From Lota lota (taxonomy: Eukaryota; Chordata; Actinopteri; Gadiformes; Lotidae), in the NCBI GenBank assembly GCA_026745465.1, contig JACYXH010000746.1, positions 130,427 to 194,426 of the forward strand: 64,000 nt of DNA. The letters run 5' to 3'. The notes under the pieces are model-generated. The model worked only from the letters and a program-made list of their open reading frames with translations. It was not told where the DNA came from and ran no database searches. Positions 3,601-8,819 of this stretch are shown here, one piece after another (the stretch's first letter is position 1; every line of letters begins with the position of its first letter). A program made the translations under genes and the position numbers.

Positions 3601-4157
3601 CTACAACCGACACAGAGACATTGAGTCACCAACCCCCCAATGCAACATAAACCCAGGGAGGAGGTCCTCCTGGGTGAAGGTGGACTGGAAGGTGTGGATG
3701 TGTGTCAGTGCGTCTGAGGACCCTCCTACATCTGGGGACACTCTGTAGAAGGACAGAGTGCCAGCAGGCCGGTCCAGATACACTCCTACTCTGTTAGAGC
3801 CAGCGGGGGGGAGACGTATGACTGTACTACTACCGTTGTACTGGGCAGAGTAACCACCATCATCACAATGAAGACTCCAGGACTTGTTGTTCCCTCCAAG
3901 CAAGCTGTCAACACCCCCTCCTCTCCTTGTGATTCCTCTGTATGTCACTCCTATAAAAACAACTCCTTCCCACTCCACCTCCCAGTAACAGCGGCCAGTC
4001 AGAGCCTCTCTACACAACATCTGGGGCCAGGAGTCAAATCTCTCTGGGTGATCAGGATACGACTGGACCTCTCTAACCCGCGTCATCTTTCTGTTGTCCT
4101 CAGACAGAGAGAGTCGTCTGTGGGCTGTGTTTGGGTCCAGTGTGAGTTCACAGGCAT
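3601..4157 (-). CDS. Gene A exon 5: PRY-SPRY (B30.2) domain and stop
   Basis: The exon begins right after a CTGTCAG acceptor and reads (D)[18 protein letters not shown] (PRY). Typical SPRY motifs follow: GRCYWEVEW, the [15 protein letters not shown] block, and FTQEDLLPGF near the end. It stops with TAG at 3603-3601. Similar exons end the NLR (45410-45963) and gene B (28335-28888). Confidence 0.9.
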
Positions 4158-7100: not shown

Positions 7101-8819
7101 AGTTTGGTATTGCATATCTTTTAAAGCCATTATGGCCTGTCGTACAAAGTCCTACATGATTGTTTTTCAAAATATCTTGTTTTTTGTTGGACAGAATATT
7201 GTATTTACATTACATGCACATTGTATTCTGAGTTATTTTACAATAGGATGCATGTTTTATTATAGCCTAATCTGCGCCTGTTATATTCTTTATTTATGTT
7301 CACATGCAAATGCCTGTTTATTTTGTAATATTTCAGCTGGTCTGTGTTTCTGTTCAATAACCTTTTGCCTAAATAAGGAAAGAATGCAGTTAGTTGATTG
7401 GTGCTTTAATCGAAATGCATCACCGATAAAAGGCTGGTCTCAAAAAGCTTCATAACTTCTATAAAACACTCACCAAGTTTATCCATTAACTGCTCTCTCC
7501 CCTCCGTCCAAGGTGTCGCTGAGTCTAGGACAGGACAGAGGAGTACAGAAGAAATCAACTCTAATACACAACAACATTGTCTCTAAACACAACAGGACCC
7601 ACAGCCAATCAAACACAAAGTCCACCCCCTGAAAGAAAACATATTAGTATTATTATTATTAAAAATACTAATTATAATAACAATAACATTATCATCATGA
7701 TCCTTTTCATTTTATTATAATAATAAATAAAATATTATTTATAATAATAATAATATTACTATTATTTATATGATTACTTTTATTATTATTGTAATTATAT
7801 TCAGGATGATATGATTTAGACTCACCGTGGCACACGGAGATTACGAGAACACACAGCAGTCCAAAGATCAGAAAAAGAATGGCGTACGATTTTAGAGCTG
7901 TTCAGGAGTGGGACAAACACACACACACGCACACACACAGAGTAATGTACACACAGATATATTCATACTGCGTGTATATCAGTCACAGTCCAGACAGTCT
8001 CCCTTCAGTCTGCAGAATCCCTCCCCATCTTCAAGAAACATCTGAAGACCTCTACTGAGAACACCTCAATAAGTGATTACTGGTACTGTAGCTCTCGTGT
8101 TGAATTTAGAACACACTTAACACATTTGAGAATTGCAGACATACAGTTATACAGTAATACAGTAATACATATAGTAATACATACGTACACATACAGTTAT
8201 ACAGTAATACAGTAATACATACAGTAATACATACGTACACATACAGTAATCGAGGGGTGGGCAACATGTGGCCTGCGTGTTACCAGGGTTATTCCCAACG
8301 GCACGCTCAGAAAATATTAGGATATGTATTTTGAGATATGTTCATATTAATTACAAACGTTATGTAATTGTGTTAAATCCATAAATCTACTTGATATCAT
8401 ATAGGTTAAATGAGTAGCCTTTATTAAACTACAAAAATATGAATTAAAAAAACCATTGGCACTCTAATATTACATTTCACTATCACTAATAATAAGTACT
8501 GAAATAATAAACATGTGTTGATATTATGTTGCTATTTAGGAGAATAAATCTGTCTATGCGATCGTTGGTTCATCAGGTTGGTCACTCTGGCTAAAAACGT
8601 TTGCTAAATGTAAATCTGAAATGTATGTAGATGAAAACATCTTTCTTTACTGGATTATTTATTTTAAATTCTCTAAAAAGGCAGCCTACCAAATCTTCTC
8701 TTCCTGGTCTCCTCCTGGTCCAAAGACGTGTCCTCAGGTTCCTTAGGGAGTCCAGGGTCCAAAGACGTGTCCTCAGGTTCCTCAGTGAGTCCAGGGTCCA
8801 GTTCATAGATGGGGTCCAT
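3601..8819 (-). CDS. Predicted type II membrane Ig-B30.2 protein, paralog A (5 exons)
   Basis: Model: 8819-8690, 7897-7826, 7524-7474, 6687-6382, 4157-3601. All internal introns are phase 1 with GT-AG ends. The coding length is 1116 nt (371 residues). Residues 1-43 are an acidic, proline-rich tail with two 13-residue repeats (LDPGLTEEPEDTS type) ending in KRRF. Residues 44-67 are one hydrophobic segment. A 17-residue stalk, an I-set Ig domain (about 85-186) and a PRY-SPRY domain (about 187-371) follow. No signal peptide precedes the membrane segment, and the basic KRR on its N-terminal side suggests N-in/C-out (type II) topology, so Ig and B30.2 would face outside. Butyrophilins use the opposite order (Ig-Ig-TM-B30.2). 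Seen: frames, splice sites and domains. Inferred: that the exons are one gene, and the topology. Function is unknown; recognition of ligand or pathogen is a guess from the domains. Confidence 0.72.
4723..5293. mobile_element. 571-bp LTR-like element, TGTGGTAACC...GGTTACCACA
   Basis: The ends are inverted copies of about 12 bases, begin TG and end CA, and the interior is GC-rich with no long frame. An equally long copy is at 29834-30404, so it inserted before blocks A and B split. Block C lacks it. It is either a solo LTR or a MITE; no clear target duplication is visible. Confidence 0.6.
5294..6352. repeat. 23-bp minisatellite, about 45 copies
   Basis: Unit of the type CAACAACAATGTTATGAATAC plus AT, with T/C variants, lies in the intron just downstream of the Ig exon of gene A. 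Block B has the same array with about 13 copies (30405-30702). Confidence 0.95.
6382..6687 (-). CDS. Gene A exon 4: I-set immunoglobulin domain
   Basis: A 306-bp phase 1-1 exon (GGTTCAG acceptor, GTAAGA donor). It shows the Ig hallmarks: B-strand Cys in AQFSCDA, core Trp in VEWLHNGRP, and F-strand Cys in NTVCCVATNSAG. The extended C'-D region and ATNSAG end fit the I-set class. It is close to the block B exon at 30723-31028. Confidence 0.85.
6700..7470. other. Intron of gene A, no other gene seen
   Basis: Mostly unique AT-rich intronic sequence, absent from block B. The open frames at 6724-6966 and 7132-7455 have no flanking splice sites or family features. Confidence 0.5.
7474..7524 (-). 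CDS. Gene A exon 3: short stalk
   Basis: A 51-bp phase 1-1 exon (TCCTAG acceptor, GTGAGT donor) encodes DSATPWTEGREQLMDKL. The roughly 0.9 kb that contains it is missing from block B, so this exon is optional in the family. Confidence 0.55.
7826..7897 (-). CDS. Gene A exon 2: membrane segment
   Basis: A 72-bp phase 1-1 exon lies between a CTGAACAG acceptor and a GTGAGT donor. It encodes a continuous hydrophobic stretch (AILFLIFGLLCVLVISVC). Its sequence differs strongly from the matching exon in block B although the flanking introns align. Confidence 0.7.
8130..8255. repeat. Short tandem repeat, ACAGTAATACATA..CGTACACAT
   Basis: Two to three imperfect copies of a roughly 60-bp unit made of ACAGTAATAC and CATACGTACACA blocks, in intron 1 of gene A. 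Confidence 0.6.
8540..8625 (+). mobile_element. SINE-like 3' tail fragment
   Basis: GGCTAAAAACGTTTGCTAAA resembles the conserved GGATAAAAGCGTCTGCTAAATG tail of teleost tRNA-SINEs. The corresponding block B sequence is at about 32470-32510. Confidence 0.4.
8690..8819 (-). CDS. Gene A exon 1: acidic tail with 13-residue repeats
   Basis: The ATG at 8819-8817 sits in a good context (GGAACCATGG). The exon ends TTT G before GTAGGC. It has two copies of a 39-bp repeat, whereas the paralog in block B has six. The start is preceded by a 5' UTR shared with block B. Confidence 0.7.

Follow-up and report, generated by a model that had tools for sequence, protein, structure and literature searches.

Probable type II Ig-B30.2 receptor genes in Lota lota: a germline family whose B30.2 exons resemble those of NLR genes

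Two intact paralogs, genes A and B, in a 64,000-nucleotide stretch of the Lota lota genome (hereafter the window) probably represent a large germline family of type II receptors, in which a fixed scaffold of tail, membrane segment and Ig domain carries a diversifying B30.2 domain whose exons are pooled with those of NLR genes. The tail-membrane-Ig-B30.2 layout had been proposed for gene A in an earlier sequence-only reading. In our search of the open-access literature (titles and the starts of abstracts) no description of this layout was found, and judged by that search the family is apparently undescribed.

Gene A (3601-8819, minus strand) could be reproduced at the splice sites named in that reading: its five exons join to 1116 nt, or 372 codons, with 0 internal stops, and all four introns are GT-AG and in phase 1 (Table 1). 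The product, of 371 residues, starts with an acidic tail and KRRF; a single hydrophobic segment comes next, then a short stalk, the I-set Ig (residues 101-185 in Pfam) and a PRY-SPRY domain (residues 191-366). Among PDB sequences, the Ig domain best matches ROBO1 (E 1.5e-25), with ROBO2 also at the top and titin as a relative, and the B30.2 domain has stonustoxin (E 3.4e-38) and TRIM16 (E 1.9e-28) among its best matches, with TRIM16-like, TRIM14 and the butyrophilins BTN2/BTN3 as further relatives. Gene B (28335-32867, minus strand) is a second intact gene of four exons and 406 codons with the same intron phases as A, and the two genes have a start-codon context in common (GGAACCATGG). In a comparison with every GT or AG on the strand under an approximate consensus matrix, the splice sites of A and B, 14 in total, all fall within the top 5% of scores. 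Because the paralog has the same layout and the Ig exon has matches throughout the genome, the layout of gene A is not a product of chance.

Table 1. Coordinates of the receptor exons and of related features in the window
Feature	Position	Strand	Content
Gene A exon 1	8690..8819	-	Start codon, acidic tail with two repeats of 13 residues (39 nt), KRRF
Gene A exon 2	7826..7897	-	Membrane segment; 19-residue hydropathy 2.89
Gene A exon 3	7474..7524	-	Short stalk, optional; none in B
Gene A exon 4	6382..6687	-	I-set Ig domain; Pfam I-set 2.4e-11
Gene A exon 5	3601..4157	-	PRY-SPRY (B30.2) and stop codon; Pfam PRY 9.1e-23, SPRY 8e-12
Gene B exon 1	32582..32867	-	Tail with six 13-residue repeats
Gene B exon 2	31130..31201	-	Membrane segment; hydropathy 3.43; 68% identical to A exon 2
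Gene B exon 4	30723..31028	-	I-set Ig; 95.8% identical to A; Pfam I-set
Gene B exon 5	28335..28888	-	B30.2 domain and stop codon; Pfam
Gene C B30.2 exon	45410..45963	-	Last exon of NLR; 91.4% identical to A exon 5; Pfam
Gene C FISNA-NACHT exon	54930..56741	-	Pfam
Fragment D	11299..11711	-	Truncated B30.2, SPRY part only; Pfam

Two other B30.2 sequences in the window, the DNA of which is repeat-rich, were considered as a third receptor gene and rejected: fragment D is truncated and lacks PRY, and the exon at 45410 is the terminal exon of an NLR (gene C). Between the FISNA-NACHT and B30.2 exons of gene C lie six stretches with LRR motifs, recognised by pattern (near 53695, 51828, 50105, 49451, 48789 and 47584), which are candidate LRR exons.

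We then searched the 575 Mb genome from which the window comes. Short signatures matched 249 Ig exons (up to 2 mismatches) and 187 exon 1 starts (up to 1 mismatch), and the corresponding reversed-pattern controls gave 0 matches; identical groups on different contigs suggest that alternative haplotypes inflate such counts, and part of the 249 and 187 matches are probably haplotype duplicates. With the Ig exon of A as query, the best 150 of 422 candidates all had 92-100% identity and were spread over 92 contigs, and with exon 2 the best 40 of 193 fell, apart from A itself, into 17 copies at 95-99% and 22 at 84-88% identity. The exons found in this way lie in a consistent order. Of the 40 exon 1 and the 40 exon 2 matches listed, at least 26 and at least 32, respectively, are followed within 7 kb by a listed Ig exon of the same strand, and none has one on the opposite strand or on the wrong side. 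Likewise, at least 32 of the 150 B30.2 exons listed are preceded by a listed Ig exon of the same strand at a distance of 1.2-3.9 kb, with two having one on the opposite strand and none downstream. Relatives of the receptor were looked for in viral contigs, where none were found.

At 30 loci taken from the Ig exon search (A included), most of which were too short to hold every exon, the Ig exon is bounded by an acceptor AG in 29 (the other reads NG) and a donor GT in all 30. Exon 2 was found in 14 of these loci; it is open in every case, and 13 copies have AG/GT ends. Exon 3 was found in seven, always with AG/GT ends, and exon 5 lies whole and open within five. Exon 3 was not found in gene B (BLAST of A against the window) or in the loci C282 and C687, and the stalk is thus optional in the family. 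Four of five further stretches that were assembled are complete open genes of the same order (C282, C668, C687 and C745, with 353, 369, 355 and 459 codons). The order of tail, membrane segment, optional stalk, Ig and B30.2 proposed for gene A is therefore present in six intact complete models, although C745 has two Ig exons, so that the number of Ig domains in the family is one or two. The size of the family, this variation in Ig number and the relation of its B30.2 exons to the NLR pool go beyond what the first reading had noticed.

It is improbable that these exons, though real, were merely amplified along with the NLR clusters, with many pseudogenes and no role as receptors. Some signs of decay do exist: stops occur in two of the 150 Ig exon matches (best of 422 candidates) and in one of the 150 B30.2 exon matches (best of 2436), counts that understate decayed copies since the scored lists hold the best matches; fragment D is truncated; and in the fifth assembled stretch (C858) exon 1 was not found within 5.2 kb upstream of exon 2. 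Passive amplification is nevertheless at odds with the four complete open models and with a pattern of substitution that is not neutral. From 31 candidate Ig exons, 29 were extracted and the 25 distinct ones compared, giving a pN/pS of 0.37 at a pS of 0.043, with pN lowered because the loci used for the Ig came from the 30 best matches; for A against B only, the Ig dN/dS of 0.70 was not significant. The B30.2 exons of the receptors, in turn, have a pN/pS of 1.89 (276 pairs), with a B30.2 pS of 0.041. The Ig domain is thus constrained while the B30.2 domain diversifies, at similar synonymous divergence.

The B30.2 exons were compared with those of NLR genes in a set of 24 receptor-type and 20 NLR-type exons (44 in total), of which 38 came from the best 150 of the 2436 candidates by match to the B30.2 of A, and six were those of A, B, C and three found via their Ig exon; being drawn mainly from best matches to A, both groups lean towards A. 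The NLR-type exons were chosen by eye from lists on the basis of a FISNA match (best 150 of 404 candidates in the genome) 4.0-17.8 kb upstream. Left out before the tests were L060, one of 20 receptor-type exons, whose start was missed by the pattern, and L074, which equals L073; the set likewise contains no B30.2 exon from L014 or L020. In this sample drawn by similarity to A, receptor and NLR B30.2 exons are indistinguishable: mean amino-acid identity is 0.859 among receptors, 0.861 among NLRs and 0.858 between them, pN/pS is likewise elevated among NLRs (1.78, 190 pairs) and between the two groups (1.84, 480 pairs), as expected of an exon of the NLR pool under positive selection, and site entropies in the two groups correlate at 0.91. 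The 20 columns with more than 1.5 bits have a pN/pS of 3.2, a value inflated by their having been picked for variability, and the other columns have 1.09.

Neither the tree nor the nearest neighbours separate the two kinds of gene. The B30.2 tree requires 15 changes between receptor and NLR labels, against a mean of 14.7 with shuffled labels (330 of 500 shuffles were as low), and it is poorly resolved, with five of 41 inner branches well supported and forcing only three label changes. The nearest neighbour has the same label for 23 of the 44 exons (21.6 expected, P 0.40), and for 22 of 40 (20.3 expected, P 0.36) without L070, L071, L078 and L080, whose FISNA match lies 10.3 kb or more upstream. 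Gene C, an NLR that was met by its place in the window alone, agrees with a common B30.2 pool. Which pair among A, B and C the informative sites favour shifts by segment, as expected of conversion or exchange: B and C in the intron before the B30.2 exon (36 of 71 sites), A and B in PRY (10 of 18), none clearly in SPRY (13, 17 and 12), and A and C in the flank 3' of the exon (95 of 119). The B30.2 dN/dS values among these three genes are 2.19, 2.83 and 4.32, with modest, non-independent Fisher tests (P 0.048, 0.022 and 0.0016 for the pairs).

Between A and B, exon 2 is far less conserved than its flanks (83.5% and 90.9% identity; Fisher P 0.0025), and the 43 bases 5' of exon 4 are also low (72%); yet the two copies of exon 2 align with 0 gaps and are both hydrophobic. 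When the same number of substitutions was placed at random, 0.3% of the trials starting from A and 2.3% of those starting from B left exon 2 open and with a hydropathy of 2.89 or more, and two lineages were both open and at or above 2.5 in 3.4%; under a laxer limit of 2.0, the shares were 12.9% and 28.7%. These shares, which depend on the limit chosen, suggest that selection keeps exon 2 as a membrane segment. A hydrophobic segment is found in all six complete models despite large differences in exon 2, although it is weaker in two of them (hydropathy 2.06 and 2.20), and in A and B it is the sole strong hydrophobic segment in a hydropathy scan. A tail of 35-98 residues precedes it in the six models.

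The flank on the N-terminal side of this segment is the more basic one in all six models (3-6 K/R versus 1-2) and has the higher net charge each time, with that of gene B at a net charge of 0. From this flanking charge a type II topology is predicted for every model, with the tail in the cytosol and Ig and B30.2 on the far side, so the B30.2 end of the family probably lies outside the cell. The main rival is that the same family has the opposite orientation, with the N-terminal tail outside and Ig and B30.2 in the cytosol; the protein would then be an intracellular sensor tethered to the membrane, comparable to an NLR that lacks NACHT. The likeness of receptor and NLR B30.2 exons in the tested sample would also be explained by a common cytosolic location, the B30.2 domains of TRIM proteins, NLRs and butyrophilins are known as cytosolic, and cytosolic examples of I-set Ig domains are known too, such as those of titin, one of the PDB relatives here. 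Against this stand the flanking charges, which favour a cytosolic N-terminus throughout, and the Ig domain, whose Cys pair and NHT sequon are retained in all 25 distinct copies compared, and we regard the opposite orientation as unlikely.

A further alternative is a first exon other than exon 1 that encodes a signal peptide and yields a secreted or type I Ig-B30.2 protein. A hydrophobic ORF beginning MAVK (MAVKQTKWWTLVVVIVGLCVPTNVLS...) with possible phase-1 donors does lie upstream of exon 1 of A, at 9492, but it has no BLAST match at gene B and was rejected as a signal exon. Moreover, exon 1 is repeated genome-wide and in both A and B has its own start codon, with an in-frame stop that begins 15 bases 5' of the ATG. 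Given the stop and the lack of a match at B, a signal-peptide exon upstream is unsupported, and we consider such a first exon very improbable. As for the tail itself, no ITAM, ITIM or hemITAM was recognised in it by eye. A TRAF6-like PxExx[D/E] motif is present by eye in the tail repeats, where it has weak meaning in so acidic a sequence.

Among known systems, the receptors resemble the teleost NLR-C or NLR-B30.2 proteins (FISNA-NACHT-LRR-B30.2) in drawing on the same B30.2 exon pool and in the diversifying selection upon it, and the NLR that adjoins A and B has a B30.2 exon that aligns with theirs together with its flanks. Unlike NLRs, A, B and C745 have no FISNA, NACHT or LRR, and instead have the tail, the membrane segment and the I-set Ig. 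Nor do these three models contain a RING or B-box (Pfam). B30.2-bearing NLRs of teleosts are well described (PMC2268669, PMC4852459, PMC11192531, PMC6988351), and NLRs have expanded in haddock and cod (PMC5894186). In zebrafish, the NLR B30.2 exons of groups 1, 2a and 3a have median dN/dS values of 1.44, 1.59 and 1.71, and those of group 3b 0.50, and B30.2 diversity across NLR groups was ascribed to gene conversion and positive selection (PMC4852459). The available part of that paper sets NLR B30.2 domains against those of trim genes and not against an Ig receptor (PMC4852459), and the available part of a zebrafish capture study, which reports 732 B30.2 domains outside NLRs, names TRIM genes and no Ig receptor.

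The butyrophilins (BTN2A1, BTN3A1 and others) are likewise proteins in which Ig and B30.2 occur together with a single membrane segment. In butyrophilins a signal peptide is followed by IgV and IgC domains, the membrane segment and a C-terminal B30.2. As the sequence-only reading had held, the receptors depart from this layout, in three of these four features: in A and B the tail, with no signal peptide before it, precedes the hydrophobic segment; this segment is N-terminal to the Ig in all six models, so that the order is reversed and B30.2 is predicted to share its side of the membrane with the Ig; and the Ig of A, B and C745 fits I-set best (Pfam), rather than V and C. The C-terminal B30.2 is common to both (Pfam). 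The stonustoxin subunits and TRIM16, which resemble the receptor B30.2 in sequence, have no Ig and no membrane segment, stonustoxin being a secreted fish protein with a B30.2 domain. ROBO1 and ROBO2, the closest PDB sequences for the receptor Ig, are similar in one I-set domain only; both are large axon-guidance receptors of type I that contain other domains. A type II anchor and a C-terminal recognition domain are also found in the type II lectin-like receptors of fish, but with a C-type lectin fold instead of Ig and B30.2, and no hemITAM was recognised in the tail described here.

At the sequence level, the 5' part of these genes is constant: it encodes the acidic repeat tail with KRRF, a single membrane segment, in some members a stalk, and the I-set Ig, present once or twice. 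Phase-1 introns link this part to a B30.2 exon that diversifies; the Ig is under purifying selection across the family, and B30.2 is hypervariable at about 20 positions. In the type II reading that we favour, the tail would lie in the cytosol, and Ig and B30.2 outside the cell or in a vesicle lumen, where the Ig may act as a spacer and the variable face of B30.2 may bind pathogen or altered-self ligands. Ligand binding would cluster the receptors, and the repeat tail would then recruit an adaptor. The B30.2 cassettes come from the same pool as those of the FISNA-NACHT NLRs, one of which adjoins A and B, and by conversion between genes or exchange of exons this pool could supply cytosolic sensors as well as membrane receptors.

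A genome search for MHC genes gave 100 matches for MHC I and 0 for both MHC II alpha and beta, and as the positive control for MHC II gave no signal, the zero counts do not establish absence. Together with the repeat-rich DNA and the many FISNA matches, these counts would fit a codfish relative, and the FISNA domain marks a fish. We give even chances to the broader interpretation that the family is an innate surface repertoire of roughly one to two hundred germline genes, with hypervariable B30.2 domains outside the cell and cassettes from the NLR pool, possibly in a lineage without MHC class II. Large pathogen-facing receptor families are central to the vertebrate diversification of innate recognition. 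If this interpretation is true, B30.2 would likely have an extracellular recognition role, displayed on an invariant Ig stalk, immune receptors of the membrane and of the cytosol would have exchanged domains, and a single evolving set of binding sites would patrol both sides of the membrane. In a codfish relative, the family may also bear on how fish that lack MHC II cope.

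The six complete models of this receptor layout (A and B in the window and four elsewhere, among them that of C745, a further stretch of the same genome with an open gene model) differ in the acidic tail encoded by exon 1, where the copy number of the 39-nt coding repeat ranges from one in C745 to six in B, and the repeat keeps the frame in all six. Exon 2, which encodes the membrane segment, is of at least two types among the loci read; between A and B its similarity is lower than that of the flanking introns, and hydrophobicity is kept in both.

In intron 4 of A, about 47 copies of a 23-bp unit form a minisatellite, next to which lies a stretch of about 580 bp with the ends TGTGGTAACCC and GGGTTACCACA (by eye); a stretch of about 580 bp with such ends, likewise recognised by eye, is also present in intron 4 of B.

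Elsewhere in the window, a TRIM-like RING exon is followed by a stop and then directly by a NACHT fragment whose initial portion is missing; an LRR motif lies beyond. Together these are a truncated or chimeric NLR/TRIM remnant. Across the genome, no match to MHC II was obtained, a search result that does not prove its absence, and MHC class I gave 100 matches, with exons densely clustered on two contigs (C654 and C823).

Features in the window and tandem Ig-exon pairs in the genome
Feature	Position or locus	Strand	Remark
Exon 1 repeat, B	32582-32867	-	
Exon 2, A	7826-7897	-	
Exon 2, B	31130-31201	-	
Minisatellite, A	5293-6354		
~580-bp stretch, A	about 4721-5304		
RING/NACHT	15124-16707	+	
LRR motif	near 18241		
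Tc1-like transposase-resembling ORFs	19164-20287	+	recognised by eye
F5/8-type (galactose-binding-like) domain exon	21098-21397	+	between A and B
C-type lectin match	22896-23261	+	weak, below cut-off; between A and B
Tandem Ig-exon pairs	L029, L083, L086 (C745)		plus five other pairs among the matches listed

The I-set Ig exon is itself found duplicated, with six tandem same-strand pairs at a spacing of 1.4-1.9 kb among the matches listed. In C745, both Ig exons of the pair fit into a single open frame, so that the predicted protein has two Ig domains.
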